NCBI GenBank assembly: GCA_037951105.1
Contig: JBAMJV010001345.1
Location: 169,602-233,601, forward strand
Length of the DNA: 64,000 bases
Direction of reading: 5' to 3'
Source of the DNA: Echinarachnius parma
Taxonomy: Eukaryota > Echinodermata > Echinoidea > Clypeasteroida > Echinarachniidae
Both the position numbers and the translations under genes were made by a program. Positions 532-41,090 of the stretch are shown in pieces; within the stretch, counting starts at the first letter, position 1, and each line of letters starts with the position of its first letter. The notes below the pieces were generated by a model. It worked only from the letters and a program-made list of their open reading frames with translations. It made no database searches and was not told the DNA's origin.

Positions 532-3500
532 GTAATCTTGCTTTTAACTCTTTGATGGCCGATTCAGCGTATAATAAACATTGTAGTTTCTAAACATGAT
601 GTTAGGAATACAATTTGTTACATGTATTGATTTGTATTATCATTATGCCTATAAAAATATACTTATAGATTGCAACTGCGCAGCTCAAACTTTGTCTTTG
701 GAATGTGACATGGTACATGACATAAGGTTGTAGATCTGCCCCCAAAACTTATACATTTTGATTGCCTGCTTCGCGAGACAATTAGTTATAATTCTATATC
801 TGTCTATAATCATTATGTCTAACCTACATATTTTGATTGTCTACTTCGTGAGACAAATGGTTAAATTTATATCTGCATTATTACTTGATGTCTAACTAAT
901 CGCAGTTTGGTTAAAGGGGACCACCAGGCAAAGAACAACAGATTATTATATGTTTTGGTACCGTTTTGTGATATCAAATAGATACCCAACTTTTGTAAAG
1001 GGTTGTGTAATTCATAAACAAAGCAATTCATTTCCACCACTTACGGAACCACTACTATTTCCTGGTTCCATACGGGCCAACCATTTGCGAGTGCGCCAAT
1101 GCTATACACTCGTACGTTTGTAGACAATAGATTCCCGGGCGATCCGTTTGCTCTGCACACATTAGTCTTCGCAATTCACACCGCATGAACGCATGCTTTA
1201 GAATGGTGATGCGTTTTCCAATTTTTTTTTCTTTTTCTGGAAACATATTTTTGTGAACTTGTTGATTGAATGGAATACTAAAGATGTTACCTTTCTTTAA
1301 TAAGAATATTATTTTTGGGTGGATGTACCTTTTAACCTTGTCTGAGTCCTAACATGCATATTTTGCTTGCTTGTGTTTGTTGTCTTAGCTGAGTGACAGA
1401 GCCAAGCTGGGTCAGAATAATTTGGATTGCCTGCTTGGCGAGACAAACAGTTCTGTATCTGTATTTGTATTATTTCTATTCAATTGTAGTTTAATTTAAT
1501 TAGTATACCTTATCTGACTCTAACATGCATATTTTGCTTGCTTGTGTTTGTTGTCTTAGCTGAGTGGCCGAGCCAAGCTGGGTCAGAAGGCCGTCAAGCT
1601 GCTACGTAAGGGTCAACCTCTCAAGGATGACCTGCTCATTGACGTCATGGTGGAGGCCGTCAGGTAAGGAAGGCACAATCTCAGGGGCCCGGCCTGTTTC
1701 TTAAAACTTTTGCAATATTATTGTTGTAAGTGTCCAATAAATTCAACTGTCATGGCAATTAAACAGCTGCAATGATCTATGCTGATTGGCTGTTGACTTA
1801 CTAGTTTTAACTAGTTTTACCATATAGAGAAACTGACCAGAAATATATAATATAAATGAAAAAAAGCAAAGAAAAAGGGAATCTTCCGGGATTTGAACCT
1901 GAGATCTCCGGATTGCTAGACGGACGCTCAACCGCCTGAGCTATAGAAAGCCCTAGTACAGTGCTTGTCCCTGAAACCCCTTATTTTTCAATGCTTGTGT
2001 GGTCAGAAGCTATATTATAAACCTGACATAAATCAACTTGGGGATATGCGAGGGATCACCAAAGTGATGCAGCTTTTTTTGACTTACTAGTTTTAATACA
2101 ATAATTAGACATTTACAACAATTGGGAATGGTTTATGAAACAGGGCCTAGCTGGGCCTATATATTCATAAACAACACACTAGCTTAGTTCCATTCTAAGT
2201 CTGTTTTAGGTGACAGCTAGTGCTAAGTAAGCAACTCGGAGTTTTCCTTGTCACTTATGTGTCAGTATTAATTAGCAACCGGCCCCCCTGAAAATTAATG
2301 TTTATTTTTTCCTCTATTTTTCAGATGTGTGCGTAATGAGCATGGTTGGTTCATGGATGCAGCATGGCTTCTAAAAAGAGATGCGGCAAAATGAGCCCCC
2401 ATAAATTTGCATATAAAGCTCAATGCAAAATGAATTTTAGAAAGCTGTTTTAATTCAGGCCTCAGGCTAAATTTAAAGATTGTTTTAATACAGGCAAGCT
2501 TGACAAGTATCCCCAAAAAATATGTTTTACGTTTTTTCTCTCCTCTTCAGACGTGTGCGTGGTTGGATCATGGACGGGTTTTCCACCTCAGAGCACCCAC
2601 AAATTTGCATATGAATCTCAATGCAAAACAAAAATTAGAAAGCTGTTTTAATGCGGGCAGTGAGCTAAATTTAAAGATTGTTTTTCAATGCAGGCAAGCT
2701 TGAAAAGTAGCCCTGAAAAATAATGTTCTATTTGATTTCTCTCCTCTTCAGACGTGTGAGGGACGAGCATGGTTGGATCATGGACGGGTTCCCCACCACC
2801 GTGGGACAGGCCAAGCTGCTGGAGAAGGCTCTCAGCGGGTACGACGCCAACGCCAAGCCCTCCAAGAACAAGCTGAGACAGAGCCGCCTGGCCCTGGACC
2901 CCAACCCTCCCAAGGACCCTCCCCCTCCGGTCAGCGGCATCGATGTGGTCATCCAACTGGACGTCCCCGATCAACTGGCCATGCGCAGGGCAGCGGGAAG
3001 GTCATGTGAGTGCAGTTTAATTATGTGTGTGTAGATTCCACTGTGAACAGATAATCATTTCAAAAGAAATCTGATTTTCAGCACTTGCGTCCATTTGTGG
3101 TTTCTTAAAACCTAAATTGTGATATTCTAATGTGAATTTGACGCAGTGTGCGTCAATGTTTATTTATTTATGTGTTTTTATTTTGTGTTATTTTTGTGTA
3201 TGTTTTTTTGACTGATGGGATTGATGGCCCTTGTCAGCTACATGCTGTTTTTCAAAGAGGTCCGAACCATGTCTGATTCCTTGTTTGATCGCGTATGGCA
3301 TGGTACGGTATGGTCTTTATAGACAGGTTTGACTGTAATTAATATATCTCCTTCCCTTTATATGTACATTATATTCTTATGTCCAATGACCTCAATTGTC
3401 CTACCAGATGCGTCCCAAGCCGAAGAGGAGTTCCACCAGGAGTTCAAGCCCCCTCCGGACGGCAGTGCCTCTGGCGTGGGCAAACAGGAGAAGGTCCAGC

Positions 3501-6500
3501 CGGTCAAAGACCCTGCCTATGACCAGGAGCAGATACAACATAGGTGAGAATGGGGGAGTACAATAACGTCGGGCGAGAGAGTTAAGAGCGTTTAGTCATT
3601 TTTCGGCATTTATTCGATCTTGTAGAATGGGGCCTATCTTTCGCAACCAACGATATATCAGTTTCATACTTATCAGTTAATCATATAGTCATGATATCTG
3701 TAAAGAAATAGAAAAGGAATTAATTGCTCTACATTTTGTGTTTGGGAAGCAGTATGATCTATGTGTAAATTTGCGCTCAAAATAATTACAGTGATTTAGA
3801 TATAAAATTGTTAAATATAAAAAACACATATTCTGATATTTACTGTCATTTTTTCCTCCAGAATCACGGGTTTCCAGGATTCTTGGAAGAAGCTAGATAA
3901 GTGGTTCTCGGGGTTCAACATCCTTCAGAAGGTGGACGTTGGTCGGGAGTGGGACGAAGCATTCCAGGCCGTCCAGGCTGTCATGGTCCAGACCAAGGAA
4001 AAGGTAATTATAATCACAACACCAGCAAATCTCTAATGAAAATTGACATATAGTAAGGCCAAGAATTATTTGGACACCTTGAAAAAATCACTTTAATTTA
4101 AATGATGCTAGAACAAATTTTGAAGAAAATGTTTGGTAAAAAGCTGCCTAAAATTCATTGTATGTGTTTATTAGATGCTGCTTTGTTGAAATCAAGATAA
4201 AATATAAGACCATTTTTGAAAAATTATCAAAATAGTTAGTTTCCTATTTTTCAGGGTGTCCAAATAATTGTTGGCTACACTGTATTTCAATTATAATACG
4301 ATCTAATACTAATACAATCAAACATGGTATATGAGAGAGGGACCAAGCATTCCAGGCCGTCCAGGCTCTCATGGTGCAGCTAGACCGAGGAAAAGGTAAT
4401 AACGTGGGAGTGTGTTTCCTAGGCAACTGGCTGCAACACTCCCTAGGGAGTGGGAAATGTGCACTTTATGTGCAGGAGTGATTGCAGTGTGTATCCGTTG
4501 AATAATAATAGTAAAATACATCATAATTATTTCAAAAGAAATCAGATTATCAGCTCTTGTGTCCATTTGTGGTTCCTCATTACCTAAATTGTGATATTCT
4601 AATGTGAATTTGACGCTCTCAATGTCACACTTACACGCAGTGTGCGTCAATGGTTTTTTTTTTATGTGTTTTTATTTTGTGTTATTTTTGTGTATGTTTT
4701 TTTGACTGATGGGATTGATGGCCCTTGTCAGCTACATGCTGTTTTTCAAAGAGGTCCGAACCATGTCTGATTCCTTGTTGATCGCGTATGGTATGGTATT
4801 GTCTTTATAGATGGGTTTGCCTGTAATTAATATATCTCCATCCCTTTATATGAACATTATATTCTTTTGCCGATTGACCTCAATTGTCCCACCAGATGCG
4901 TCCCAAAGTAAAGTGCTGTATAATACTCACATGTATAGGGCTAAATAAATAACTGTTATTATTATTATTATAACAATCTCAACATCAGCAAATCTCTAAT
5001 TAAATTTGACATATTTCAGTGGTACATGTTACTACACTAAAACAATCAAACATTGTACCGTAAACCGGGGTGACTAATTTGGCCACCGGGGTGACTTTGG
5101 CCACTTTTTGAGAAGGATGTATTTTCATCAAAATCTCACTCTTTAGAACTAATTTCTGATTCTATACATTACCCTATAGGAATATATTTGAAACAATAAG
5201 AAATTTGTTCTAAAAAGTAAGGCTTGATGAACATGCATTCATCTCAAAAAGTGGCAAAAGTCAACCCGGTTTACGGTATTAAATTGTATTGTATTATATT
5301 ATTATTGTATGTATTAATAATAAAATATTGAATTAAATTTATATAGCGAATCATATGAATAAACATCTCTTTGTGCTTTACAGTAATGCATTGATGCATT
5401 GTACACTGTTAAAATCTGACACCAACTGTCACCTTTTCGCAAGGTCTATGAAACTATCCCACATCATCTTACATAATGATATTGGTATATTGATTGAAGT
5501 CTCAAATATCACTTTAAAAATCCTAATTCTCTGTCCATCTTCTTCATCTCTTTCCCCTGAAGATTGAGAAAGCGAAGGACGATGCGTCAAAGGCCGAGGA
5601 CGAGGCATCCCGGACAGCGGAGGAACCTCCCTCCACGGCCGCCGACTCCAGCTCGGCCATGCCCACTGACGGACTGGACTCTAATGCTACCCAGCAGGCT
5701 GATACAACACAGGTACGTACGGTCGATTAAACCTGTGTTAGCAACCACCTGTCTATAGCAGCCAACGTACCTGTAGTGCATGGCCATCAAAAGTCAAACC
5801 TGTCTTAGCAGTGGCATGTCTAGCAACCAACCTGCCTAGATAGTAGCCATCAAACCCGATATTCTGCAGGAAAAAAAACATTATTGTAAATATGGTACCG
5901 GTTTACAGAGGTCACCTGTAATACACAGTGGCCACTTTTCTTTTTTCGCTTTATTAATAGGTAGTCACTAAAGACAGGTTTCACTGTATAGGGCTCCGTT
6001 ATAAAGATACTGTACTCCATTGCAAGAAGAAATTCTGCAGTTGCATGATAGTTTTCATAATAGTAAAGAGTTTGCCTTTTGGGGAATTTCGTTGACATGT
6101 ACAGCTCAAAATAATGAAATATTGTTTTTACTGTTCTTTCTGATTTATGAACCATCGTCTTCTGTAAGGTTATGATTGCGTTAACTTCTTTGCATATACA
6201 TGTACTTCCAGCAACAAAAAATATGTTATAATACTATGCTCATACTTTCTATAATATGGATGACGTATGTATCAATGTTGTTGTTTTCGCCCCAGGCCAG
6301 TGTATCTGAAGCTGACAAGTCTGCAGCGCCAGCGTCACCTGGGGGATCTAGAGCCGGTAAATATTCTCATATCATTAAAGCCCATGCACACTTCCAGATC
6401 AAACGATTAAAGATCTGAACTATATATATATACTACATGCTTTAAGTACGCTGCTTTAATTCAGATCAGATCAGAATCGGATTGTGTAGCGTGTGGTAGG

Positions 6501-30500: not shown

Positions 30501-31073
30501 TATGCATACATTGCATTGCTAAAAGGAAAAAAAATACACAAATTATACTATTTGAAATGTTTGAATGAAGATTTTAGCTAGCCAGATATCCCTTGACTGA
30601 TGACAATGTTTTGATGTTTGAATGTTGTAGTTGGAGACGTTGACTAGTCAGCTGTCGCCGGACTCTGAGTACATAGACTGGAAGACGTTCCTCCTGCAAG
30701 CCTGCCAGCCCTGGCCCCTACCCTCCCAGGCCCAGCTCCTTCAGACACTGCAAGAGTTCAAGCAAGCTGATGTACTCAACACAGGATGCGTCACCAGGGA
30801 ACAGTTTGAACAGGTTAGATAATTAATACATTTATTTGAATGCCAACATGAAAATAAATTTTCCTCAATCTATCTATGGTAAATATATATAGTAGCATTA
30901 AATTATGTTACATTCACCTCAACATACTTTATTATTCTTCTTTATTGTTTATATTTTGCATGTTTGTATTTTTGCACTGTGGTACAGTAATGACCAGCGA
31001 GCCGACACGCCAGAAGACCGCATCTCCTACATCCACAGGCTCTATTTTGATATCATTATTATTGTTTTTATGT

Positions 31074-31104
<31 letters not shown>

Positions 31105-31406
31105 CATGATGTAGGTTCCACTGTGGTACAGTAATGACCAGCGAGCTGACACACCAGAAGACCCTGAGGAGCCGCGCCCATATGACCGCATCTCTCACAT
31201 CCAGAGGCTCTACTTTGATATCATTATTATTATTATGTGTATTATGTGTATTATTATTATTATTATTATCATGATGTAGGTTCCTTTGTGGAACAGTAAT
31301 GAGCAGCGAGCAGAGACACCAGAAGACCCCGAAGAGCCGCGCCCATATGACCGCATCTCTCACATCCAGAGGCTCTATTTTGATATCATTATTATTATTA
31401 TTATGT

Positions 31407-31443
<37 letters not shown>

Positions 31444-34400: not shown

Positions 34401-37400
34401 TATAGCCGTTCACATATAATAGCTTCTATTCACACCTTTTCTCTATTTTGTATGATGTGTTCAGTTGCACTTCTCCAGCATGCATTTTACTTGTAGTTAA
34501 ATGGAAAAGGAAACCCTGCAATTTGTGCTTGCTGTTACTGATAAGTGCATTAGTCCTGTCACTTCTAGTCGTATATTTCCTCTTGGGTATCACTAATAAT
34601 GGAAATGATAAATGTTTTTTAAACCACTATCAGCTGTTTTGACTGACCAAAGGAAACTGCCATGTTTTCTAACTACCATCATCTGACCTTGCACTAAAAA
34701 AAGGCGGGTTACGTAACAATTACTGACAAAGCAGCAGATTCAAACAACAGGGGTTACATTACTCGTTTTTGTTAGTGCATGCTCAGATCTGCGCTCAGTT
34801 GAAGTTTCATGCGGTTTCATGGCAGCCTCCAGTGGTCGTCAAAACAGTTGATCAAAAAGTTTCAAAAAAATGTTTCCATTTAAGTGATACCCAAGAGAAA
34901 ATATATGACTCGTAGTGACATGAATGATGCACTTATCAGTAACAGCAAGCAACAATTCCAGCGTTTTGTTAACATCAAGGACGGAGTCCCACATATTTGT
35001 GCATGCTTAGTTGTGGGCAGGCTTTGCCAAGTTGTTCAAAACAATTGGTTATTTCCTATTAATGACATAAGAAAGTGACATCACTACTTTGTTTTTCTAG
35101 TAACTGTTCCATAATTTGAATTGGTATCTATACATGTATCCTATTATTATATTCCTATAATTTGTAACTGAAGACAAGTGATGTAGTTATCACTTGATCT
35201 ACAAGAAGCTTTAGAAACCAGTCTACTTTGTGTATGTAAAATAATGGTTCTTTATTTATGTAACGACATTTGTTATATCCACTTAGTTTTAGAAGATAAC
35301 AATTACATTATTATTAATTGTATACATTTCCATTTAGTGTTTATAAAATGAAGGAATATTGAGACAATATTATGTATTTAGGTAGCTACAGTTATATGTT
35401 TATTCGTTATACATATTCAGTTATATCAGCAATTGATTCAAATCATGATACGTTATATTTTTCATTAGTTGAGCATTTCAGATACTAACGCAATACTTAA
35501 TATATTAGATTATAGCTCTGTCAGTTGAATTATGTAATCTAAAGTATACTACTTCATGTAGCTTGTTTTGTATGCATGCAATTTCTCAAGAATTTGATCT
35601 TTCCAATATTTTGATTCTGTGGATTAATATGCAAATATCATCTTATTTGTTGGTTATTCAATTATATAGCACGCTATATAAATCCAAAACATTTAATTGT
35701 TGAATTATTGTTGTCACATTTAAAAAAATGTATTTATATTTTTAGGGGGGTGGGGATGGGGATTGAAGAAACAAGGGAAAATCTCTAGTTGTCGGTGAAA
35801 GATATCGTACTGATTTAGATTTTAAATAATCTTAGGCCAAAAAAAAAAATTTGTTTGATTGGCGTAACGGGCAACCAAAAATTAGGGTAGGTCGGTAGGG
35901 ATTTTTTTTTCTTTTTTTTTTTTTTTTTTTTTTTCTTCGCACAAATACACAAAAACACACACATAACACATCGCAATTGCAAATTCTATTGCAATTCTTT
36001 ATTTTTTATTTTTTTTTTTTTATTATTATTTTTAAAAAAATAAAAAATCAGAAAAAACCTCTAGGGTCTGCGTGCATTAGCGCCGGTATTTTTAGGGGCG
36101 GGCGGGTTACGCCAATCCAACCATTTATTTTTCATGGCCTTATTTATATATTGATTGACATCTCAAACAAATATACAACACAATAAGGTACTTCGTACCA
36201 CGCAAAAGATATTACATACATGTGTAGTGATGGAATGCACATTTTCTAACAACTAAATGCAAATAATCCATTGTATGCATTGTGATAGTGATGCCCCACG
36301 AGCGTCAGAAGACGGAATGTGCGCTATATAAGTAGCCACCATTATTATTCTTACTACATGTATTATGATTATTATTATGTTTCCTTTTTATCTAGGTTAT
36401 TGAGAACTTTACAGGAGAGGAGTTGCCTGCGGATACCAAGCCCCTGGAGCCCAGCCTAGGCCCCCCTGAGGAAGGCATCCCTCCCTCGGCCCTCACGGCA
36501 ACTGTTCCTCTCAGTGCGCTAGTCCAGGTTAGTTATGTGTAACCCTCTCAACTCTAGACCCTAGAGCCTTAGAGCCTAGCCTAGGCCCCTCAGTCCTCAC
36601 AGCCACTGTCCCTCTCAGTGCGCTAGTCCAGGTTAGTAATATGTAACCCTCTCAACTCTAGACCCTAGAGCCTTAGAGCCAAGCCTATGCCCCTCAGCCC
36701 TTACAGCCACTGTCCCTTTCAGTGTGCTAGTCCAGGTTAGTAATATGTCACCCTCTCAACTCTAGACCCTAGAGCCTTATAGAGCCAAGCCTAGGCCCCT
36801 CAGCCCTCACAGCCACTGTCCCTCTCAGTGTGCTAGTCCAGGTTTGTAATATGTAACCCTCTCAACTCTAGACCCTAGAGCCTTAGAGCCTAGCCTAGGC
36901 CCCTCAGTCCTCACCTCCACTATCCCTTTCAGTGTGCTATAGTCCAGGTTAGTAATATGTAACCCTCTCAACTCTAGACCCTAGAGCCTTAGAGCCAAGC
37001 CTAGGCCTCCCTCAGCCCTCACAGCCACTGTCCCTTTCAGTGCACTAGTCCAGGTTAGTAATATGTAACCCTCTCAACTCTAGACCCTAGAGCCTTAGAG
37101 CCAAGCCTAGGCCCCTCAGTCCTCACAGCCACTGTCCCTCTCGGTGTGCTCGTCCAGGTTAGTGTGTGTAACCCTCTAAACTATAGGCCTTAGAGCATAG
37201 CCTAGGCCTCCCTCAGCCCTCACAGATAAACTAAATGATAACAATATATTTGTCTTCACCATGGTCAGCCATCTCTGGGTGACAGCCATCAGTTCAGCTG
37301 ACCTCTGACCCGGAGGACACCTTCAGCCTGGAGCGTCTTGCGGGGGTGTACCGGGAGCTGTGGTCAAGAGAGCTAGAACCTATACTCTTATCTTTCTCAA

Positions 37401-39140
37401 CTAATGATATGATGTTTGTTTTGTGTTTGTGCATACAGGTGCTTCACCATGGCCAGCCGTCTCTAGGTGACAGCCATCGGTTCAGCGTGACTTCTGACCG
37501 AGAAGACACCTTCAGCTAGGAGCGTCTGGCAGCGGTGTACCGGGAGCTGGGGTCAGAGGAGCTAGAACCTATACTCTTCTCTTTCTCTACTAATGATATG
37601 ATGTTTGTTTTGTGTGTGTGTTGCAGGTGTTTTACTATTGCCAGCCGTCCCTGGGTGACAGCCATCGGTTCAGTGTGACCTCTGACCCGGAGGACACCTT
37701 TAGCCAGGAGCATCTGGCTGCGGTGTACCGGGAGCTGTGCCTTTCTCTTTTCTCAACTGATGATATGTTTGTTTGTTTTGTGTTTGTGCATACAGGTGCT
37801 TCACCACGGCCAGCCGTCTCTGGGTGACAGCCATCAGTTCAGCGTGACCTCTGACCCAGAGGACACCTTCAGCCAGGAGCGCCTGGCAGCGGTGTACCGG
37901 GAGCTGGAACCTATCTCTTTCTCAACTGATAATATGTTTGTTTGTTTGTTTTGTGTGTGTGCATACAGGTGCTTCACCATGGCCAGCCGTCTCTGGGTGA
38001 CAGCCATCGGTTCAGCGTGACCTCTGACCCGGAGGACACCTTCAGCCAGGAGCGTCTGGCAGCGGTGTACCGGGAGCTGGGGTCGGAGGAGCTGGAACCG
38101 GTGCCCTTCTACACCCTGATTGAACACCCCATCATACAGGACTGCCTCACCATGTGCCATCGATTCAAGAGCCCTGTGAGTACCATGCCAGATTAAGGGG
38201 GGGGGGGGGGGGGGGGTTCTCACTAAGATAATAGTTAACTTTGTAAAAATTCGACCAAAATCACTTGGAGCTTTCACACTTCTCTTGTACCTTGTTGTTT
38301 GGCTTGTGGTAACAAAAGAATGAGGTGGGTTTTGATTTTTCAAGTGTCTCCCTAGTTATGGTGATAATTCAGATCGCATTTGAAAGCATCTGTAGACGCT
38401 TTCAACCAGAGACAAGAGTATCTGAATTGGGATACTATATCCTCCGTAGTATGCGAATTTGGATACTTCACACAAACGATCGGGATGAAATCAGACATCA
38501 AATTATTATTTTTTATTTAGATAAACATTCTTTTTCTAATAAAATCTTGCATATCATTCTCAAGAATCTTCCAATGATATTGGTTTATGATTGAAGTCTC
38601 AAATATAACTTTTCTGAAATAATATAGTTAATGGGTCACGTTAAGATGTTTGCTATGTTCACTAATTCATAAAATACATAATGAAGACTTTCCTGGTATT
38701 CACCTCCTGTGTTTGTTTGTTTTTCATTCAGTCTTTATTGAAATATGAATCTGCAACAAATAAATCAATGAAATCAAAGGGAAAAGAAATAACAATTAAC
38801 ATACAAATATTGCAATTTTCAAATAAATCAAACCAGCTCATAAAAATATTATTATATTCTACATCAACCTTCTAAAATATTATTCTACTGGGTAAAAATA
38901 TATATTTTTGTTTTCATGTCATTTCCATTTTTCATTTAAAATAGTTTGTCTATGACTGTATGATTATGATCTATTTAGAGATGATATTGTACCATATTAG
39001 GCACTATATAAATCGAACCTATTATTATTATTATTATTTTATTATTTCCATTGTATTTTTTGCAGGATTTTACCACTGTGTTCAGTGCTCCGGCCGTCTT
39101 ACCAGCAGCAGACAACGATGCTCAGAGTATCATGTCCTAA
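428..39140 (+). CDS. SPEF2: SPEF2/CPC1-like gene, 5'-truncated by the window, 27 supported exons
   Basis: Joined in phase, the exons give about 1,295 codons ending in TAA at 39138-39140. In order they encode an adenylate-kinase-like domain lacking its N-terminal P-loop part (left of the window), a Lys/Glu/Ser-rich linker, helical segments containing LKEQLWEM and WLEDRLGLL, Pro-rich tracts, and a C-terminal helical region with EF-hand-like stretches. This order and the local motifs match SPEF2, the animal counterpart of Chlamydomonas CPC1. That family sits in the C1 side of the axonemal central apparatus and is needed for sperm-tail and ciliary motility. Human SPEF2 is roughly 1,800 residues, so about two thirds is present here. 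The span includes introns; the exons are listed separately. Many introns carry partial copies of neighbouring exons. The identification rests on recognising motifs, not on an alignment. Confidence 0.9.
1326..1417 (+). repeat. Partial copy of SPEF2 exon 2 and its acceptor
   Basis: About 85 bp matches 1505-1588: the pyrimidine tract, the TTAG acceptor and the first 29 or so bases of exon 2. After that it runs into unrelated AT-rich sequence. It has no donor, so it is a broken exon copy. The surrounding intron 532-1559 otherwise holds AT-rich sequence and two diverged copies of a short repeat (about 760-860) ending in gcgagacaa. Confidence 0.85.
1560..1663 (+). CDS. SPEF2: SPEF2 exon 2, adenylate-kinase-like segment
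   Basis: The acceptor is ttgtcttag and the donor is gtaagg; the phase runs 0 to 2. The residues GQKAVKLLRKGQPLKDDLL correspond to the adenylate-kinase segment usually written G-x-x-(M/L)-x-x-G-x-x-(V/I)-x-D-E-L-(L/V), which lines the nucleoside-monophosphate side of the pocket. A damaged copy of the acceptor and first 25 or so bases lies about 170 bp upstream (1326-1417). Confidence 0.88.
1685..2148. mobile_element. MITE (CCTGTTT ends) split by a tRNA-like element
   Basis: The left end reads GGCCTGTTTCTTAAAAC with TTGTTGTAAGTGTCC inside. The right end is the inverse (ACAACAATTGG ... GAAACAGGGCC). Related copies lie at 22566-22730 and 22736-22860, and looser ones at about 41490 and 43080. A tRNA-like element sits in its middle (1811-2078). 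It is non-coding and probably a non-autonomous DNA transposon. Confidence 0.7.
1811..2078 (-). mobile_element. tRNA-like retroposon with 18-bp target duplication
   Basis: The 18-base direct repeat ttgacttactagttttaa flanks the element at 1793-1810 and 2079-2096. The body holds a tRNA-like sequence on the minus strand (about 1877-1953) with a D-arm box AGCTCAGGCGGTTGAGC and a T-arm box GGTTCAAATCC. Unlike a usual SINE, about 120 bp precede the tRNA part on the minus strand. It shares both flanks with the tandem array at 13990-15046. Confidence 0.75.
2300..2751 (+). repeat. Two partial upstream copies of SPEF2 exon 3
   Basis: Copies of the acceptor and exon start occur at 2325 and 2551, before the real exon at 2752. 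Each is followed by the same roughly 150-bp intron unit (cacaaatttgcatatgaa, aaagattgttttaat). The first copy has a changed exon sequence and the second a deletion of codons. Neither has a donor. Confidence 0.85.
2752..3005 (+). CDS. SPEF2: SPEF2 exon 3, adenylate-kinase core (DGFPTT)
   Basis: The acceptor is ctcttcag and the donor is gtgagt; one base completes a split Arg codon. The residues GWIMDGFPTTVGQAKLL match the adenylate-kinase GF-(L/V)-x-DGFPRT-x-x-QA signature, and IDVVIQLDVPDQLAMRR matches the following beta strand and helix (V-x-x-L-x-V-P-x-x-x-L-x-x-R). The Arg of DGFPRT, which contacts the monophosphate, is Thr here, so catalysis is doubtful. A Pro- and Lys-rich insertion separates the two motifs. 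Two partial copies of the exon lie at 2325 and 2551. Confidence 0.93.
3408..3543 (+). CDS. SPEF2: SPEF2 exon 4, adenylate-kinase lid-like region
   Basis: The acceptor is cctaccag and the donor is gtgaga, with split codons at both ends. The residues EEEFHQEFKPPPDG resemble the adenylate-kinase lid motif (YH-x-x-F-x-PP-K-x-x-G), and the end DPAYDQEQIQHR resembles the R-x-DD-x-x-E-x-x-x-x-R helix after it. Part of this exon and its upstream intron is duplicated at about 4525-4907. Confidence 0.88.
3862..4003 (+). CDS. SPEF2: SPEF2 exon 5, end of adenylate-kinase-like domain
   Basis: The acceptor is ttcctccag and the donor is gtaatt; one base completes the previous Arg codon and the exon ends in phase 0. 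It encodes 47 residues including ITGFQDSWKKLDKWFS and REWDEAFQAVQAVM. This fits the last helices of the kinase fold, where adenylate kinases have a helix, a short strand with a Val-Asp-(Gly/Val) pattern (KVDVG here) and a final helix. The last 60 or so bases and the donor are repeated at 4333-4395. Confidence 0.88.
4333..4395 (+). repeat. Downstream copy of the end of SPEF2 exon 5 with donor
   Basis: The last 60 or so bases of exon 5 (GAGTGGGACGAAGCATTC type) recur here, followed by gtaataac, which still looks like a donor. No acceptor lies directly in front. A one-base insertion shifts the frame near its end. Confidence 0.8.
4400..4522. repeat. Dispersed repeat (copy at 6520-6710)
   Basis: The text around ACTCCCTAGGGAGTG and GTGATTGCAGTGTGTATC is shared with 6530-6620. 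The second copy continues into a tail with GCGCTATATT and (ATT)n. This tail type occurs also at 21890-21960, 25215-25280, 25865-25940, 36300-36360 and 38980-39045, and resembles 3' tails of retroposons. Confidence 0.55.
4525..4908 (+). repeat. Copy of the intron before SPEF2 exon 4
   Basis: About 370 bp match 3055-3420: the intron text with GATGGGATTGATGGCCC, the acceptor accag and the first dozen bases of exon 4. It then continues into an (ATT)n repeat tail. It lies after exon 5, so the copied segment moved past one real exon. Confidence 0.85.
5056..5278. mobile_element. MITE with TACCGTAAACCGGG ends
   Basis: The left end taccgtaaaccggggtgac is inverted at the right end (gtcaacccggtttacggta). 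The ends suggest TA target duplication, as for mariner-type elements. A diverged copy lies at 23411-23623. It is non-coding. Confidence 0.75.
5563..5712 (+). CDS. SPEF2: SPEF2 exon 6, acidic linker
   Basis: The acceptor is cccctgaag and the donor is gtacgt, phase 0 at both ends. It encodes 50 residues rich in Glu, Asp, Ala, Ser and Thr (IEKAKDDASKAEDEA at the start), with no hydrophobic core. It is a probable disordered linker after the kinase-like domain. Support comes from the clean splice sites and the open frame joining its neighbours. Confidence 0.8.
5713..6295. repeat. Intron with 'tagcaaccaacctg'-type repeats
   Basis: The intron after exon 6 begins with imperfect short repeats of the theme tctatagcagccaac. 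At about 5890-5990 it holds a repeat of the type aaagacaggtttcactgta, also seen at 1-110, about 3305-3335 and 20155-20268. Nothing coding is visible. Confidence 0.45.
6296..6356 (+). CDS. SPEF2: SPEF2 exon 7, short linker exon
   Basis: The acceptor is ttcgccccag and the donor is gtaaat; the exon ends after the first base of a Gly codon. It encodes about 20 residues (ASVSEADKSAAPASPGG), which continue the low-complexity linker. It is supported mainly by phase continuity and by the strong acceptor. Confidence 0.75.
6775..6891 (+). CDS. SPEF2: SPEF2 exon 8, Lys/Ser/Gly-rich linker
   Basis: The acceptor is tgcatag and the donor is gtaagg, with split Gly codons at both ends. It encodes a basic Ser/Lys/Arg-rich stretch with short repeats of the type SAKGKGSARGRSPKG and SGSAKRSASKDG. 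The composition is typical of the positively charged linker in SPEF2-like proteins and gives no structural clue beyond disorder. Confidence 0.8.
6892..7645 (+). other. Intron without recognisable elements
   Basis: The sequence is AT-rich. I see no clear terminal repeats, coding similarity or RNA gene between exons 8 and 9. Confidence 0.4.
7646..7681 (+). CDS. SPEF2: SPEF2 exon 9, 36-bp Lys-rich exon
   Basis: This is a small exon between a weak acceptor (atgcaag) and donor gtatat. It encodes AKGKKEGKEKGK, which keeps the frame with the exons on both sides and continues their composition. The acceptor has little polypyrimidine tract, so inclusion may be variable. Confidence 0.6.
7771..8603. 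mobile_element. 833-bp TTAA-ended MITE with telomere-like ends
   Basis: It starts TTAACCCTAATCCCACTGGG and ends with the exact inverse. Inside each end is a long G or C run and an inverted GGCCTTTTTGGCC / GGCCAAAAAGGCC block. The interior is AT-rich without coding capacity. TTAA at both ends suggests piggyBac-type target choice, though no transposase is present. Confidence 0.8.
8604..10350 (+). other. Intron remainder before exon 10
   Basis: AT-rich sequence with no gene. A region near 8990-9190 has a repeat-like text with GTTTCGAACTCTGGACC, which could be a decayed tRNA-like T-arm box. The rest shows nothing I can name. Confidence 0.35.
10351..10520 (+). CDS. SPEF2: SPEF2 exon 10, SPKK and Pro/Glu-rich segment
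   Basis: The acceptor is aattccag and the donor is gtaggg. It encodes a basic start (ASPKRKGSRSKSPKKGR), then a PEPEPEPEPP tract, then GSEDWVYVNEPIDE, where folded sequence seems to resume. It ends in phase 0 and joins exon 11. Confidence 0.85.
10561..10734. mobile_element. Short MITE with GGGCGGTATTCT / GAACGCCC ends
   Basis: The left end gggcggtattctactaaa and right end cttgagaacgccc are partly inverted, with internal inverted text around TAGTCTGGACTAAAG. A related fragment lies at 26508-26625 (cggtattctgctaaat). It is non-coding. Confidence 0.5.
10735..11849 (+). repeat. Tandem array of SPEF2 exon 11 5' fragments (155-bp period)
   Basis: Exon-like starts occur at 11125, 11280, 11435 and 11590, spaced exactly 155 bp. 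Each has the acceptor ttgtcgcag and 77 exon bases, then ataaatcgatttag in place of the rest of the exon. Degenerate copies without acceptor lie at about 10735-10830 and 10990-11050, and a fragment at 11769-11790. An in-frame TAA follows the exon part of each complete unit, and there is no donor. Confidence 0.93.
11850..12116 (+). CDS. SPEF2: SPEF2 exon 11, helical segment
   Basis: The acceptor is ttgtcgcag and the donor is gtgaga, phase 0 at both ends, 89 codons. It starts NLANALAPHWDNTEATYLG and continues with a long charged helix region containing IYHYYYRIRRNFESYL and EFVNMWQREYNEIAEDMR. It is among the most conserved-looking parts of the gene. At least six partial copies of its first 77 bases lie in tandem directly upstream (10735-11800), all without a donor. 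Confidence 0.92.
12465..12589 (+). pseudogene. SPEF2 exon 12, upstream copy 1
   Basis: It has acceptor tgctcag and about 123 bp matching exon 12. I see three base differences, all synonymous. The last codons and the donor are replaced by other sequence (accgttatacaatg). Without a donor it should not be spliced internally, though a cryptic site or a terminal exon cannot be excluded. Confidence 0.85.
12678..12803 (+). pseudogene. SPEF2 exon 12, upstream copy 2
   Basis: The acceptor is ttgttcag and the open frame matches exon 12, except that ATGTCC is ATGGCT (Ser to Ala). After the Asn-His-Tyr codons it diverges (cttttatacaat) and has no donor. It is spaced 213 bp from copy 1 and 209 bp from the real exon. 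Confidence 0.85.
12887..13024 (+). CDS. SPEF2: SPEF2 exon 12 (third copy; the one with a donor)
   Basis: The acceptor is ttgttcag and the donor is gtcagt, phase 0 at both ends, 46 codons. It encodes a helical, coiled-coil-like segment with LKEQLWEMSDERKLEAEAER and WLEDRLGLLTNHYLTMMQ. Two nearly identical copies lie at 12465 and 12678, each with an acceptor and open frame, but only this copy keeps the last codons and a consensus donor. Confidence 0.92.
13025..13568 (+). other. Intron, AT-rich, nothing recognised
   Basis: The intron has an A-rich low-complexity patch at 13410-13520 built from aaaatt-type words. I see no other structure. Confidence 0.45.
13569..13855 (+). CDS. SPEF2: SPEF2 exon 13, helix then Pro/Lys-rich tail
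   Basis: The acceptor is cggcatgtag and the donor is gtgagt; it ends in phase 2. The first half (CEVDRYQDTLRLLKDYYQGM ... FARIPLIDLPPMERPG) looks like a folded helical segment. The second half is Pro/Thr/Lys-rich (TPTPTTPSAKGKKGK) and acidic. The exon is distinctly GC-rich compared with its introns. Confidence 0.9.
13990..15046 (-). repeat. Tandem array of a 291-bp tRNA-like element, about 3.6 copies
   Basis: The unit repeats with period 291. The tRNA-like part on the minus strand occupies 14057-14133, 14348-14424, 14639-14715 and 14930-15006. It has a D-arm box TAGCTCAGTCGGTAGAGC, a loop whose middle reads AGC (Ala), a T-arm box GGTTCGAATCCC, and TTTTTC directly after the 3' end, which could stop RNA polymerase III. 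Stem mismatches and extra bases before the D-arm suggest a tRNA-derived repeat and not working tRNA genes. Dispersed copies lie at 1811-2078, about 21040-21112 and 32425-32510. Confidence 0.8.
15123..15375. mobile_element. MITE with TGTGACCGGCTATAG ends
   Basis: The ends are inverted: tgtgaccggctatagtaaaa on the left, and ttttgctaaagtcggtcaca on the right. A second copy at 34163-34414 has better-preserved ends (about 32 bp, including ACCCTGCACTTGTC). It is 250 bp long and non-coding. Confidence 0.8.
15540..15732 (+). CDS. SPEF2: SPEF2 exon 14, Lys/Glu/Pro-rich
   Basis: The acceptor is ctaccag behind a C-rich run, and the donor is gtaagg. One base completes the previous Lys codon. It encodes IPLVPRRPSSSQGFFPIPTP, then a KGKEKEK tract and an acidic end (DEEEVPQPPTDPDER). 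It is probably disordered. A homopolymer C run directly before the acceptor makes the intron end error-prone in assembly. Confidence 0.87.
15777..15945. repeat. Repeat with interstitial TTAGGG-type run
   Basis: At 15872-15903 there is a short run of TAAGGG and TTAGGG units. It lies within a repeat with atagccac words that recurs, more decayed, at 21545-21690. The run is short and the units vary. Confidence 0.6.
15960..16230 (-). mobile_element. Probable LINE 3' tail, minus strand
   Basis: Read on the minus strand, the text ...CCCCATGGAAGACCAGCCATG... followed by CGGCGCTGAGTGGGCCATCC and a run of AAATAAATA resembles the 3' untranslated end of CR1/L2-type LINEs, which often encode such phrases. 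No coding part remains. Confidence 0.5.
16428..20916. mobile_element. 4.5-kb foldback transposon with long inverted arms
   Basis: The left end TACCCAGGGGGCAAA is inverted at the right (TTTGCCCCCTGGGTA). The outer arms of about 430 bp (16431-16850 and 20490-20914) match closely in reverse complement. Inner arm segments also match: 17110-17200 with 19575-19640, and 17320-17420 with 19385-19470. The bases next to the ends suggest a TA target. The middle contains a decayed coding region. It lies in the intron between exons 14 and 15. Confidence 0.8.
17488..18760 (+). pseudogene. Decayed ORF of a repeated invertebrate protein family
   Basis: Broken frames show HEEAVTRVLLH followed by VVIHINDTDVTST, and further on LLKLLPPKEDAFLHCLKRAS. 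I recognise this order (HEEADTR-type, then DTDV, then LPP-x-x-x-A-x-x-x-H-x-x-RA) from large families of uncharacterised, transposon-linked proteins in invertebrate genomes. Several stops and shifts interrupt it, so it is not functional. The function of the family is not known to me. Confidence 0.55.
21040..21112 (-). repeat. Diverged tRNA-like element copy
   Basis: On the minus strand, ctagtcactagagcaacgg-like D-arm text precedes a T-arm box GGTTCAAATCACG. It shares the flanking aaatgaaagaagaaaa text with the other copies. The stems are more damaged than in the array at 14-15 kb. Confidence 0.6.
21303..21350 (+). CDS. SPEF2: SPEF2 exon 15, 48-bp exon
   Basis: The acceptor is ccttctgcag and the donor is gtgagt, phase 0 at both ends. 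It encodes LIFEAYQYGLHKVAEM, an amphipathic segment. It follows a 5.6-kb intron that contains a 4.5-kb foldback transposon (16430-20915). Confidence 0.82.
21967..21996 (+). CDS. SPEF2: Candidate 30-bp SPEF2 micro-exon
   Basis: It sits between an acceptor-like ttattccaag and a perfect donor gtgagt, in phase 0 at both ends, and encodes DYHIEFEILP. It could be a real alternative exon, since phase, donor and lack of stops all agree, or a chance match just after an (ATT)n repeat tail. No conserved motif helps decide. Confidence 0.4.
22147..22325. mobile_element. MITE with TACAGTGAAACCTC ends
   Basis: The left end tacagtgaaacctc is inverted at the right (gaggttccactgta). The ends and the TA flank resemble non-autonomous pogo/mariner-type elements. 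It is 179 bp and non-coding. Confidence 0.72.
22566..22730. mobile_element. MITE with GGCCCTGTTTCAT ends
   Basis: Inverted ends GGCCCTGTTTCATTTAT and ATAATGAAACATGGCCC enclose an inverted ATTGTTGTAAGTGTCC / GACACTTACAACAAT pair. It is the uninterrupted version of the element at 1685-2148. A further half-copy follows at 22736-22860. Confidence 0.75.
23038..23064 (+). CDS. SPEF2: Candidate 27-bp SPEF2 micro-exon
   Basis: It lies between acceptor-like catacatacag and donor gtaagt, phase 0 at both ends, and encodes WDNFKSVIL. With the 30-bp candidate before it, it would extend the short segment begun by exon 15. Evidence is limited to splice signals and phase. Confidence 0.4.
26142..26286 (+). 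CDS. SPEF2: SPEF2 exon 18, charged helix to Lys-rich tail
   Basis: The acceptor is catttgtag and the donor is gttagt; it ends after one base of a Gly codon. It encodes TIAEMSAKDLEDEAERAREL, which is coiled-coil-like, followed by a KGKGKDKDKGGKRAKSKSPT tract. Confidence 0.85.
26783..26950 (+). CDS. SPEF2: SPEF2 exon 19, SPKK/Pro-rich then helix
   Basis: The acceptor is tgctatgatag and the donor is gtaaga. It encodes KKTPGGKKSPKKGKK, then TPTPPPTPPP, then a helical part (EEAARKELKERMKAEYVGAI). Split codons at both ends fit exons 18 and 20. Confidence 0.87.
27560..27698 (+). CDS. SPEF2: SPEF2 exon 20, helical segment
   Basis: The acceptor is ctatccag and the donor is gtaggc. It encodes a continuous helix (LKTRMELIKTHTIQVLQELK ... 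DMNNWLGARFIQEMD) and ends with the first two bases of a codon. Three imperfect copies of its last 40-50 bases follow downstream (27771-28010), with the donor lost in each. Confidence 0.88.
27771..28010 (+). repeat. Three downstream copies of the end of SPEF2 exon 20
   Basis: The text ATTGGCTGGGAGC ... CATCCAGGAGATGGACAG recurs near 27773, 27863 and 27963, each followed by the same intron words (tgcaccaatcacagac). In the copies the donor GT is changed (gaccggtatg, gacaggcatg), so no full donor site is kept in the expected place. Confidence 0.85.
28471..28570 (+). CDS. SPEF2: SPEF2 exon 21
   Basis: The acceptor is gttctcag and the donor is gtaaga; it completes a Ser codon and ends in phase 0. 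It encodes INILCQYLGECIEKRAKIQP and a hydrophobic end (MVIFQDDFAINK), consistent with a helix-strand element of the C-terminal part. Confidence 0.88.
28873..29418 (+). repeat. Four upstream copies of SPEF2 exon 22 start
   Basis: Acceptor-plus-exon starts lie at 28873, 29002, 29115 and 29275. Each shows GTGAAGGTGTACCGCAC or a one-to-two-base variant and the Pro-rich codons, and breaks off after 60-90 bases into tagataatgaagtagcaac-type text. They are separated by runs of tatattc words. None has the second half of the exon or a donor. Confidence 0.9.
29419..29604 (+). CDS. SPEF2: SPEF2 exon 22, EF-hand-like segment
   Basis: The acceptor is acttgtag and the donor is gtgagt, phase 0 at both ends, 62 codons. 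After a Pro-rich start (VYRTPSPPPRPDP) comes FTVEQIINLQNQFIKSAHSG followed by FISAKGFIDTLCDL. This reads like a degenerate EF-hand, a helix then a loop then (F/I)-x-x-x-x-F, without the full set of calcium ligands. Four partial copies of its first 70-90 bases lie upstream at 28873, 29002, 29115 and 29275. Confidence 0.9.
29605..30277 (+). other. Intron without recognisable elements
   Basis: A short phrase (taatgcagtttagttttgtactgg) occurs twice, near 29873 and 30170, suggesting an old local duplication. Nothing else stands out. Confidence 0.4.
30278..30328 (+). CDS. SPEF2: SPEF2 exon 23, 51-bp exon
   Basis: The acceptor is tatttgcag and the donor is gtaaca, phase 0 at both ends. It encodes HGTEALPDGWLNVSINQ, which continues the EF-hand-like region into exon 24. 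Confidence 0.85.
30631..30813 (+). CDS. SPEF2: SPEF2 exon 24, helical/EF-hand-like
   Basis: The acceptor is tgttgtag and the donor is gttaga, phase 0 at both ends, 61 codons. It encodes EYIDWKTFLLQACQPWPLPS and LLQTLQEFKQADVLNTGCVT followed by REQFEQ. The second part has the spacing of an EF-hand-like helix-loop-helix. The Trp- and Pro-rich centre is typical of the SPEF2 C-terminal region. Confidence 0.9.
30975..31453 (+). repeat. Three upstream copies of SPEF2 exon 25 with (ATT)n joints
   Basis: Copies begin at about 30975 (no acceptor), 31115 and 31280. Each ends at tttgatatc and runs directly into an (ATT)n tract, which in turn leads to catgatgtag and the next copy. The shared joint shows that one original duplication was then multiplied in tandem. 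Confidence 0.92.
31454..31609 (+). CDS. SPEF2: SPEF2 exon 25
   Basis: The acceptor is catgatgtag and the donor is gtaggt, phase 0 at both ends, 52 codons (VPLWYSNDQRADTPEDPEES ... RLYFDIFADSVAIPPVLNYT). Three partial copies lie upstream (30975, 31115, 31280). Each stops at the Phe-Asp-Ile codons and runs into an (ATT)n tract, so only this copy has the rest of the exon and a donor. Confidence 0.92.
31628..32014. mobile_element. MITE family B copy (TTAAAG...CTTTAA)
   Basis: The left end ttaaagacatctagtaactt and right end aatgttactatatcccttta are inverted with TTAA at both edges. It shares gccgagtaatgagc and ctgttccatgc words with copies at 42661, 43685, 44136/44684, 46309, 54318 and 62321. It is 387 bp and non-coding, in the intron after exon 25. 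Confidence 0.8.
32049..32186 (+). CDS. SPEF2: SPEF2 exon 26
   Basis: The acceptor is tctcccag and the donor is gtaagt, phase 0 at both ends, 46 codons. It encodes LLYFSTDQDALNGFYRALSV then a Pro/Glu-containing end. The first part looks like an EF-hand helix with a short loop (STDQDALNGFYRAL). Confidence 0.9.
32221..32410. repeat. 70-bp tandem repeat, about 2.7 units
   Basis: Units start at catcttgcattttgc (32221, 32291, 32361) with a shared aaaggtcttttcaaac word. The array lies just inside the intron after exon 26 and is followed directly by a tRNA-like fragment. Confidence 0.75.
32425..32510 (-). mobile_element. Truncated tRNA-like element with target duplication
   Basis: The 12-base direct repeat gaattacttatg flanks the fragment (32413-32424 and about 32509-32520). 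It contains the tRNA-like part from the D-arm on and the T-run beyond its 3' end on the minus strand, but lacks the leading 120 bp. The clean duplication shows movement by insertion of a short copy. Confidence 0.72.
32767..32775 (+). CDS. SPEF2: Candidate 9-bp SPEF2 micro-exon
   Basis: Nine bases encoding TPQ lie between acceptor tcataccag and donor gttagt, in phase 0. Such a short exon is easily a chance match. It is listed because both splice signals are good and it keeps the frame in the 4.2-kb intron between exons 26 and 29. Confidence 0.22.
33059..33297. mobile_element. MITE with TACTGTAAA ends
   Basis: The ends tactgtaaacgtggtaat and aacaacatttacagta are inverted. Inside are repeated ttaaaacccgcgaat words. 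It is 239 bp, probably mariner-like (TA flanks), and non-coding. Confidence 0.7.
33359..33385 (+). repeat. Poly-G run
   Basis: More than 20 G in a row lie in the intron before exon 29. Similar G or C runs occur at 7817, 10741, 15507, 19627, 38197, 44451, 48780, 62728, 63146 and 63387. Confidence 0.9.
33756..33779 (+). CDS. SPEF2: Candidate 24-bp SPEF2 micro-exon
   Basis: The acceptor ttgttcccacag has a good pyrimidine tract, the donor is gtgtgt, and the exon is phase 0 at both ends, encoding TRKAPNLR. It could be a small alternative exon before exon 29. There is no support beyond the splice signals and frame. Confidence 0.35.
34163..34414. mobile_element. MITE with TGTGACCGGCTATAG ends, second copy
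   Basis: It is the better-preserved relative of 15123-15375. Left tgtgaccggctatagcaaaa and right ttttgctatagccgttcaca are inverted almost throughout, including the internal CCCTGCACTTGTC. Flanks read ata on the left and tat on the right. Confidence 0.82.
34525..34960. repeat. Foldback repeat, arms about 140 bp
   Basis: The arms 34525-34666 and 34817-34960 are reverse complements with small differences (gcttgctgttactgataagt opposite acttatcagtaacagcaagc). About 150 bp separate them. There are no obvious terminal motifs and no coding capacity I can name. Confidence 0.65.
35832..36143. mobile_element. MITE with TTAGGCCA / TGGCCTTA ends and T-rich core
   Basis: The left ttaggccaaaaa and ttgattggcgtaacgggc have inverted partners at the right (cgggttacgccaatcc, tggccttattt). 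The middle is T-rich low complexity. It is non-coding. Confidence 0.6.
36396..36527 (+). CDS. SPEF2: SPEF2 exon 29
   Basis: The acceptor is tttatctag and the donor is gttagt, phase 0 at both ends, 44 codons (VIENFTGEELPADTKPLEPS ... TVPLSALVQ). Six tandem copies of its last 60 or so bases together with the donor follow downstream (36528-37230), with no acceptor in front of them. The first usable donor is taken as the exon end. Confidence 0.87.
36528..37230 (+). repeat. Six downstream copies of the end of SPEF2 exon 29 with donors
   Basis: Units of about 105 bp end in tagtccag followed by gttagt or a close variant (near 36632, 36735, 36841, 36951, 37056, 37157). Each keeps the Ser-Ala-Leu-type codons of exon 29 and the donor, but the 5' part of the exon and any acceptor are missing. 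The intervening text has cctctcaactctagaccc. Confidence 0.9.
37255..37968 (+). repeat. Four upstream copies of SPEF2 exon 30 start
   Basis: Copies start at about 37255 (no acceptor), 37439, 37627 and 37796. They keep tgggtgacagccatc and gaggacacctt and break off near gtgtaccgggagctg, then continue into tatctctttctcaact and the next gcatacag acceptor. The copy at 37439 has an in-frame TAG in place of the Gln codon. None has a donor. Confidence 0.92.
37969..38175 (+). CDS. SPEF2: SPEF2 exon 30
   Basis: The acceptor is gcatacag and the donor is gtgagt, phase 0 at both ends, 69 codons (DSHRFSVTSDPEDTFSQERL ... FYTLIEHPIIQDCLTMCHRF). Four partial copies of its first 110-130 bases lie upstream at about 37255, 37439, 37627 and 37796. 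Only this copy has the 3' half and a donor. Confidence 0.92.
39066..39140 (+). CDS. SPEF2: SPEF2 last coding exon (31)
   Basis: The acceptor is ttttttgcag. It encodes DFTTVFSAPAVLPAADNDAQ and SIMS and then stops (TAA at 39138-39140). The stop region is partly duplicated about 160 bp downstream (39289-39355), inside the presumed 3' untranslated region. Confidence 0.88.
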   Translation, partial: DFTTVFSAPAVLPAADNDAQSIMS

Positions 39141-41090
39141 CCACCCAACACACTGCTGCAAGTCTTATCATAGGTGGCTTACAAACAGCAGCAAAGGTTT
39201 GATCTGGAGAGTTCTGTATCATATCTCTACAGCAACCAAAAATATCAATTGCTCACTAGTAGGGTAAATGAATTAAGTTTACTTGCCCAACAGACAATGA
39301 TGCACAGAGTATCATGTCCTAACCACCCAACACACTGCTGCAAGTCTAATATCTTATGGCCTAGCTAGTCCCAATGCACCATTTATCCTTCCGTTTCCTA
39401 CCTGTTCGACATCCGGAAGGTACAAAATAATGCGGACCATGTTCGGAATGGACTAGTAGGATTACTTTTAATTCGGCTCCGTATTGCTTGAAACTAAACG
39501 TCATGGAACTTCAAAATTTGCTAGATACTGACCGTTGCGCCACATTTTTTTCGGATAGAAAACAGAAGGAGAAAAAACAGTGCAGTGGGGTTAGACCATT
39601 AGTGGTTTATAAAATAGCATCAAAGGTTTGATCTGAAAGGTTCCGTACAATTTCTATCGAGAGAAGGAAATTTTGGGGCAGTACAGAAAACATGGTAATT
39701 GTTTAGACACATGAGCTACACCAATGCTAGAAATTAGTAACCTTTTTTAATTTTCTGATGGTATGGTTTGGCAAGTGAAATAACAGTCTTATCAAATGTT
39801 TGCTTGTCCGCCGAAACCAGAATTGGGTGACACAAAACAAAGAAAAAACATTAGAAAGTTTGTTCCTTTTAGTTTCCCAGTTGGGAAACGTGCCCCAAAT
39901 AATTTAATTTAAAACTATAAAAAGATAAGGTGCAAATCCTTTATAAAAACAAAGAAATACATAGTGTGCCTCCCACAATAATTCTTGTGCCCCCAAATCA
40001 ATCCAACCAAGCAACGATATTGCACTCCACGTTGTATTTCTTTCAGCTAGATAACTTCAAAATTTCAAGAAATTGAAGATTTAGATGCTTAGATTGGTTC
40101 TAGGTGCATCTGATTGTATACAAAATATTAGTGTATAAATAATTTGATGAATTTGAATTTGAATATTGATGTATTCATCATTGCCATGCCGTCTAAAGTT
40201 ATAATTCAAAATGCTCCATTGTTGAGCTATTTATCAAAGGTTGTGCCTGGCTGGCATGGCCGCTTTCTAAAATATCATCGGTAATAACTCTCAAACTGTG
40301 AAAAGTGATAGTAATATGATGCAGTGTAATGCATAGAAACAAGGGTAGGCTATTTTACTGTACAACAATGTTTTAAGGTATAATTATGTACACGTATCAC
40401 CGACCTACAATACACAAGCAATGAATAAAACTACCAATTATTTTGTTTCAGATTTATAGAAACTTTCTTTATGTTTACATTAGTACATAGCTTTAAACAG
40501 CAATGTATAAGACATATACCCTCTATTTTTTGTTGTCTTGCTATGGAGAAATATATGCCAATGTTGGATTTGTTTTGACCAATGGTGAGCATAATTCATT
40601 ATCTTCAAATGTTTCTGAAGGTAAAAATTTGATAACTAAAAGAAAGATGTGCTTTCATGCATGGTCAATTTGAAATATCCAAAAAAATGTATGAATTGCA
40701 ACATATAAAATAAGTTAAAATGTATTGGAGAGCTATATGTAAGCCATGTGTTTGATATATATTTATTTGTACTAAACTTGTTTATTGTACATATTTAATG
40801 AATTAAATATATAGAAAATATAATGACCATTTATTTTAGTTTTTGATAACACATGATAAAAGATAATTAATGAGTATTTTAAAAGTATATGTATGTGATA
40901 TACTGTACTTGTTTTCCTGTCAATTTGAATTGCATGATGTGAGATGTTTTTTTCCTATTAAGTATTCCGTCCATAACACTGGGCACCCATTTTCTAGTAT
41001 TCTTAAGTATTCAAAAGTTAGAATTTCTAACTTTCAAATCTTATTTGAGCATTCCACACACCTTGATTACAAATGTGTATAAATAAAGAG
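39141..41090 (+). other. Presumed SPEF2 3' untranslated region
   Basis: This AT-rich stretch has no open frame of note. The direct repeat of the stop-codon region lies at 39289-39355, and a related repeat of the sequence around 39190 recurs near 39606. Possible polyadenylation signals are AATAAA at about 40424 and 41082. The true end cannot be fixed from sequence alone. Confidence 0.4.
39289..39355 (+). repeat. Copy of the SPEF2 stop-codon region
   Basis: The text gacaatgatgcacagagtat to acacactgctgcaagtct repeats 39110-39165 with few changes, including catgtcctaa. It lies in the presumed 3' untranslated region. Confidence 0.85.

Follow-up and report, generated by a model that had tools for sequence, protein, structure and literature searches.

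The stretch analysed here, referred to as the window, is 64,000 nucleotides of the echinoderm Echinarachnius parma (positions 169602-233601 of contig C1344). It carries a gene for sperm flagellar protein 2 (SPEF2) in whose introns partial copies of the adjoining exons are found. The assembly comprises 1.2 Gb in 14,790 contigs, with haplotypes separated. Its mitochondrial contig (C14600) reads in the echinoderm code, with AAA as Asn at a conserved COX1 site, and has the order cox1-R-nad4L-cox2-K-atp-cox3-S-nad3-nad4-H-S-nad5-nad6(opposite)-cob with a group of tRNA genes ahead of nad1, an arrangement of echinoid/holothuroid type. The family of bindin, a protein of echinoids and sea stars, matched in the genome at E 1.2e-33. 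These features point to an echinoderm, most likely an echinoid, and against amphioxus, the host that the mirage literature (see below) would suggest. Twenty-four SPEF2 exons were modelled on the plus strand between positions 428 and 38175, with AG and GT borders throughout and phases chaining into one open frame; the likely last coding exon starts at 38732. The product of the modelled exons matched SPEF2 (PDB 9ijj, E 2.7e-199), as the gene had been named in the first-pass annotation of the window, and also CPC1 (PDB 7n6g, E 5.1e-44). The copies very probably form 'mirage' arrays, which are local duplications of minisatellite type with a unit that extends across a single exon border.

Each exon, together with 20 nt of flank, was searched with BLAST against positions 1-40000 of the window and places within 1.6 kb were counted. 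Direct partial self-copies were located near 12/24 modelled exons, at 39 places (best E 2.65e-70). None of the exon-copy matches listed was on the opposite strand, and no whole-exon copy was among those listed. Tandem exon duplication giving mutually exclusive exons was rejected as a candidate, as no listed copy holds a whole exon with both splice sites. The arrays were independently visible with Tandem Repeats Finder (TRF) and a repeat search; in seven TRF tandem arrays the unit included either an exon border or its copy (E10, E11, E16, E18, E21, E23 and E24). Units were ∼60 to 210 bp in size and each consisted of exon and intron sequence. The acceptor side was repeated at E02, E03, E04, E10, E11, E18, E21 and E24 and the donor side at E05, E16 and E23. 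Copy identities ranged from 73 to 100% with most copies diverged, the local 100% copies being two short pieces of E18 of 39 and 23 nt.

A second contig, C579, was collinear with the window and with ∼21 kb upstream of it, with 90-98.7% identity in the blocks retained by a filter of >90% identity and >200 bp. All 24 exons were present on C579, with AG and GT in 24/24 and exon identities of 90-100% (23/24 at 95% or above). A search with the protein of E11 (46 residues) listed only the two authentic exons and two half copies on C1344. C579 is taken below as the second haplotype.

Acceptor-type copies lay upstream of most of the affected exons, all of which are on the plus strand. E02 (region 1335-1663, exon 1560-1663) has one such copy at 1369-1417 and none on the other haplotype; a piece of intron repeat at 746-896 recurs at 1420-1468, between this copy and the exon, which suggests an event more complex than slippage. 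E03 (2286-3005, exon 2752-3005) has two copies on each haplotype, those of the window at 2309-2357 and 2535-2587. The E10 array (10777-12292, exon 11850-12116) has a 155-bp unit covering exon positions about −16 to 77, with seven upstream places and one short downstream donor-side place at 12264-12292; four places were found on the other haplotype. E11 (12454-13024, exon 12887-13024) has copies at 12454-12588 and 12659-12803 with a unit of ∼209 bp, and none on C579. The E18 array (28846-29604, exon 29419-29604) has units of 144-160 bp at seven places, compared to one on the other haplotype. Three copies with a unit of ∼165 bp and an (ATT)n tract inside precede E21 (30929-31609, exon 31454-31609), and four with a spacing of 169-188 bp precede E24 (37254-38175, exon 37969-38175); on the other haplotype these exons have two and one.

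Donor-side copies were located downstream of three exons. E05 (region 3862-4400, exon 3862-4003) has one, at 4335-4400, and three on the other haplotype. E16 (27560-28069, exon 27560-27698) has three, at 27777-27817, 27861-27919 and 27964-28020, with a unit of ∼101 bp and no counterpart on C579. E23 (36396-37225, exon 36396-36527) has six with a unit of 104-106 bp, and two on the other haplotype. The remaining two exons were of different types. At E04 (3051-4906, exon 3408-3543) a dispersed direct duplication of 3051-3418 at 4523-4906 carries intron, acceptor and 11 nt of exon 4, placing the acceptor copy (4876-4906) downstream, past exon 5; the other haplotype has three donor-side copies instead. 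E12 (13569-13970, exon 13569-13855) is followed by a 30-bp internal-exon fragment at 13941-13970, with none on the other haplotype.

The first-pass annotation had reported copies at 12 exons, one to six at each and about 30 in total. Its exons 2, 3, 4, 5, 11, 12, 20, 22, 25, 29 and 30 seem, from their order and the side of their copies, to be E02, E03, E04, E05, E10, E11, E16, E18, E21, E23 and E24, so that 11 of the 12 appear to match modelled exons with copies, and E12, with its internal fragment, was absent from the list. The presence of multiple copies was borne out and the numbers were revised upwards, to 39 places with eight at E10 and seven at E18. The twelfth, 'exon 31', is probably no exon; its copies probably correspond to a repeat of 63 bp (39106-39168 and 39288-39350) that lies past the likely last coding exon and is not coding in the model. 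This direct repeat (94%) appears single on the other haplotype, where both copies align to one stretch.

The two haplotypes differed in the extent of the copies. On C579 copies were found near 10/24 exons at 21 places, compared to 12/24 and 39 in the window. Over both haplotypes 14/24 exons had copies, and six of these had them on one haplotype only (E02, E11, E12 and E16 in the window, E14 and E20 on C579). E03 was the only one of the 14 with equal copy number on both. Array positions at E03, E05, E10, E18, E21, E23 and E24 were common to both contigs, with lengths that mostly differed. The points within the exon at which copies end were also common to both haplotypes at E10 (position 77), E21 (108) and E05 (86), and the founding duplications are therefore probably older than the haplotype split. 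Unit numbers appear, from the same comparison, to have changed after it.

Exons of other genes were sampled from the same assembly. Local partial copies were found at 9/20 kinesin exons and 2/8 mitochondrial-carrier exons, giving 11/28 in total. The kinesin exons were hand-picked from 134 listed matches, with a single exon per contig and mostly from the upper part of the list, after overlapping partial matches had been visible in the tables; without the two exons whose half copies show in the match table (on C10331 and C12482) the kinesin count was 7/18. The carrier exons were 8 of 131 listed matches, and 138 protein-kinase matches were left out. Exon ends in both samples were the ends of family matches and not mapped splice sites. 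SPEF2, at 12/24, did not differ from the sample at 11/28 (P 0.58), and is not special within this genome.

An assembly fault, with reads collapsed or wrongly re-used around exons, had been raised in the first-pass annotation and would suit a fragmented assembly with separated haplotypes. We consider it very unlikely, since most copies are diverged (wrongly re-used reads would not produce identities of 73-100%), since the two contigs agree in array positions and mostly not in lengths, and since exons of unrelated genes are affected. The assembly may nevertheless have miscounted the copies.

Splice sites were scored in 22 acceptor-type copies, leaving out short pieces of E10, E12 and E18, with a range of 25-260 nt for a partner donor. 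Of these copies 18 reach the exon border. AG was present in 18/18, in agreement with the earlier statement that upstream copies keep the acceptor; measured against the 10th percentile of real acceptors, 16 scored higher and two lower. In 18/18 the highest-scoring GT in the donor range fell short of the 10th percentile of the 24 real donors. The claim that these copies never have a consensus donor thus stands, with the qualification that five of the 18 have a GT about equal to the weakest real donor. Downstream copies had been described as sometimes retaining a donor, which was also found: the E05 copy keeps it, the GT is lost in 2/3 copies of E16, and 5/6 copies of E23 have a full-strength donor, equal to the best-scoring class of real donors. 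Use of the copy sites would be followed by a stop codon in 17/17 acceptor copies (E04 left out) and 7/7 donor copies tested, and the sites must therefore normally be ignored. In the test of E23 the donor position was off by some nt; the result is unaffected, as the stop lies within 4-5 codons of the exon end.

Sites of this strength could be read as splice-site decoys, maintained by selection, that delay or control the splicing of SPEF2. A decoy role had been suggested in the first-pass annotation. The intact AG in every border-reaching acceptor copy and the strong donors beside E23 fit such a role. Conserved presence, however, was not observed: at six of the 24 exons copies are confined to one haplotype, the number is equal at E03 alone, and exons of other genes carry such copies too. 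As the arrays are not conserved even between alleles a decoy function is unsupported, and we regard it as highly improbable.

Decay of whole-exon tandem duplications, formerly alternative exons, would also leave partial copies, and the copies of E11, which extend to exon position 126 of 138, come close to a whole exon. The 18 border-reaching acceptor copies, however, have no donor of consensus strength within 260 nt. Copies of one array moreover stop at common points inside the exon, at 108 in E21 on both haplotypes and, in copies young enough to retain 95-98% identity, at 77 in E10. Such an origin is extremely doubtful.

Duplications whose unit straddles one border remain as the best explanation. 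The first-pass annotation had noted that copies upstream of an exon are of acceptor type and those downstream of donor type. This order holds generally, with E04 as the sole dispersed-copy exception on this haplotype (its acceptor copy lies ∼1.5 kb away, downstream) and the short donor-side place of E10 in addition. At the sampled loci the copy was likewise derived from the expected half of the match in 23/24 kinesin and 2/3 carrier copies. The polarity follows from geometry, because a tandem duplication across one border leaves copies with the splice site of that border only, and it needs no special biology. When units were placed at random, 80% of the placements touching an exon crossed exactly one border, 13% fell inside the exon and 8% contained it. 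The observed border events straddled one border in 11/11 cases, with the internal fragment of E12 left out (P 0.08 under random placement).

The units would arise by ordinary tandem duplication, through replication slippage or repair followed by unequal exchange, and would expand and shrink quickly. Duplication across an acceptor would give extra acceptor and exon-start pieces upstream of a still complete exon, and duplication across a donor would give exon-end and donor pieces downstream. The spliceosome would define only the complete exon, and half-exon alleles would be tolerated because each piece is without a partner splice site. A duplication that lies within an exon, or takes in all of it, would change the protein and is probably eliminated. 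Exon definition had been offered previously as the reason for tolerance; it is plausible, with the polarity itself assigned to geometry, and the copies do retain splice sites whose use would lead into a stop codon.

Several points weigh against this account. Some copies are not strictly tandem, with other sequence between them at E02, E05 and E12 and a dispersal of ∼1.5 kb at E04, and simple slippage therefore does not account for all of them. The lack of inside-exon and whole-exon events hints at selection and does not show it, a P of 0.08 being compatible with little selection. We infer normal splicing of SPEF2 from the open frame through the 24 exons, and the allelic relationship of C579 and the window from their collinearity and identity.

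Exon borders may in addition be true duplication hot spots, through base composition, chromatin or transcription-coupled repair. This is compatible with the straddling-unit explanation, to which it would add a targeting step. In the window 12/23 clusters of units touched an exon compared to 3.5 expected under random unit placement (P 5e-5), and on C579 10/18 compared to 3.6 (P 8.5e-4). At the kinesin loci 11/28 clusters did so, compared to 3.7 expected, and units thus touch exons ∼3 times more than random placement predicts. For clusters with a best identity of at least 90% the values were 7/12 compared to 1.8 (P 7e-4) in the window and 4/8 compared to 1.7 on C579, the latter borderline (P 0.06). 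Among the sampled exons 11/28 had copies, compared to 32/168 control windows of the same loci lying clear of the exon and its copies (Fisher one-sided P 0.02; windows that share a locus are not independent).

A bias in detection was assessed with planted duplications. At up to 10% divergence per lineage 114/120 were detected at exons and 110/120 in introns, which are nearly equal; older ones were found more easily at exons, with 117 compared to 87 of 120 at 15% and 102 compared to 36 at 20%. Units without an exon were not especially G+C-rich, 8/11 on haplotype A and 5/8 on haplotype B being at or below the stretch average of 0.38. A stricter null was then applied in which the exon annotation was rotated over whole arrays, with every unit counted as if original. 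Under rotation the excess was slight, with 12/22 compared to 7.4 (P 0.03) and 10/17 compared to 6.7 (P 0.05) on the two haplotypes, and the number of exons touched showed no significant excess (P 0.07 and 0.17). The haplotypes are furthermore not independent and the sample was hand-picked. Equal numbers of copies of random intron sequence had been named in the first-pass annotation as evidence against its observation; duplications without an exon were indeed common (11/23 clusters in the window, 8/18 on C579), but fewer than random placement predicts. Of its suggestion of a local duplication-prone process acting at exon borders, the process is supported and acts in other genes too, and the targeting of borders is possible and unproven. 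We hold hot spots to be a real possibility that is somewhat more doubtful than probable. The wider proposal is speculative, namely that tandem duplication targets exon borders throughout the genome, with ∼40% of exons beside allele-variable half-copies, in a process that persisted or arose independently in echinoderms and cephalochordates.

To the first-pass annotation the pattern, repeated at so many exons, was not known from any described gene. The open-access literature likewise gave no gene with as many exons affected; the kind itself has been described in amphioxus. Relevant passages of one report (PMC3087553, citing Canestro et al., 2002) give mirage minisatellites in Adh3 and in the globins BflGb6 and BflGb9. 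In BflGb6 the unit, of 150-160 bp, occurs 6 times on one haplotype and 3 times on the other, and in BflGb9 a 3′ exon border is duplicated. Many of the repeats keep splice signals, splicing was suggested to be undisturbed by reverse transcription PCR (RT-PCR), and the Adh3 mirage showed somatic instability (PMC3087553). The SPEF2 arrays are alike in unit size, in a repeat number that varies between haplotypes and in the splice signals kept. They show the features of a mirage in that the unit spans a border, either the 5′ or the 3′ border is repeated and the number differs between haplotypes. Unlike the amphioxus globin mirages, which by that account affect one border in each gene, they are in an echinoderm, where 14/24 exons of a single gene are affected when both haplotypes are counted, as are 11/28 exons sampled elsewhere. 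RNA and somatic instability were studied for the amphioxus mirages.

Two further amphioxus cases are comparable, as far as the sections of these sources that concern them go. In lancelet PGBD5 repeats overlap exons 3 and 4 and copy number differs between two genome versions, with troponin C named alongside (PMC3902484); PGBD5 differs in being one cephalochordate gene in which the repeat was annotated as an exon, which its authors doubted. The introns of VCBP3 contain complete or partial exon copies (PMC2632668). Like the SPEF2 copies, the partial exons, some with splice sites, lie beside the coding exon they resemble; VCBP3 differs in being an immune gene, in including complete exons and in being mentioned as data not shown.

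In intron gain by tandem duplication a new intron arises inside an exon. Intron gain by tandem genomic duplication, as treated in part of one example (PMC4974935), is similar in that a duplication can copy splice-site sequence; it makes a new intron, whereas the extra material of SPEF2 stays within an existing one. In the available part of a report on a repeat-containing immune gene family of a sea urchin (PMC5103432) nothing on exon borders was found, and the open-access literature yielded no echinoderm report of such half-exons. As far as that literature was searched, what is new is the phylum, how many exons of a single gene are affected, the comparison of haplotypes over a whole gene stretch and a sample suggesting genome-wide commonness.

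Other repeats were observed in the window. The intron between E12 and E13 contains a tandem array at 13989-15046 of ∼3.6 units of 291 bp whose minus strand carries four tRNA-Ala(AGC)-like genes. This intron is 1684 bp in the window and 599 bp on the other haplotype, a difference which suggests that the latter lacks the array. At 32457-32514 there is a further, weaker tRNA-like piece. Between E13 and E14 the intron (15733-26141) measures 10,409 bp compared to 5,314 bp on the other haplotype, with large insertions that differ between the two. Beyond the gene, a direct repeat pair of ∼570 bp at 42445-43015 and 43459-44034, ∼1 kb apart, is suggested by cross-matches to C579 (93%). A 16-bp minisatellite (CGTTATTCCGAAGGTT) lies at 47472-48233, in a region of higher CpG, and its reverse complement recurs at 47940-48233, giving arrays in opposite orientation.

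With the SPEF2 arrays the record of mirages, previously of single cephalochordate genes, comes to include an echinoderm and a gene with many exons affected; the small sample points to a wide occurrence in the genome. In such genomes half-exons may be mistaken for exons by automatic annotation. The two haplotypes provide a natural allelic series, with none to eight half-exon places beside exons of about 96-100% identity. This series suits tests of how exon definition ignores strong unpartnered splice sites, and of border duplication as a source of new introns. Genome-wide targeting of borders, if true, would give a constant supply of spare splice sites that could feed intron gain and alternative exons.

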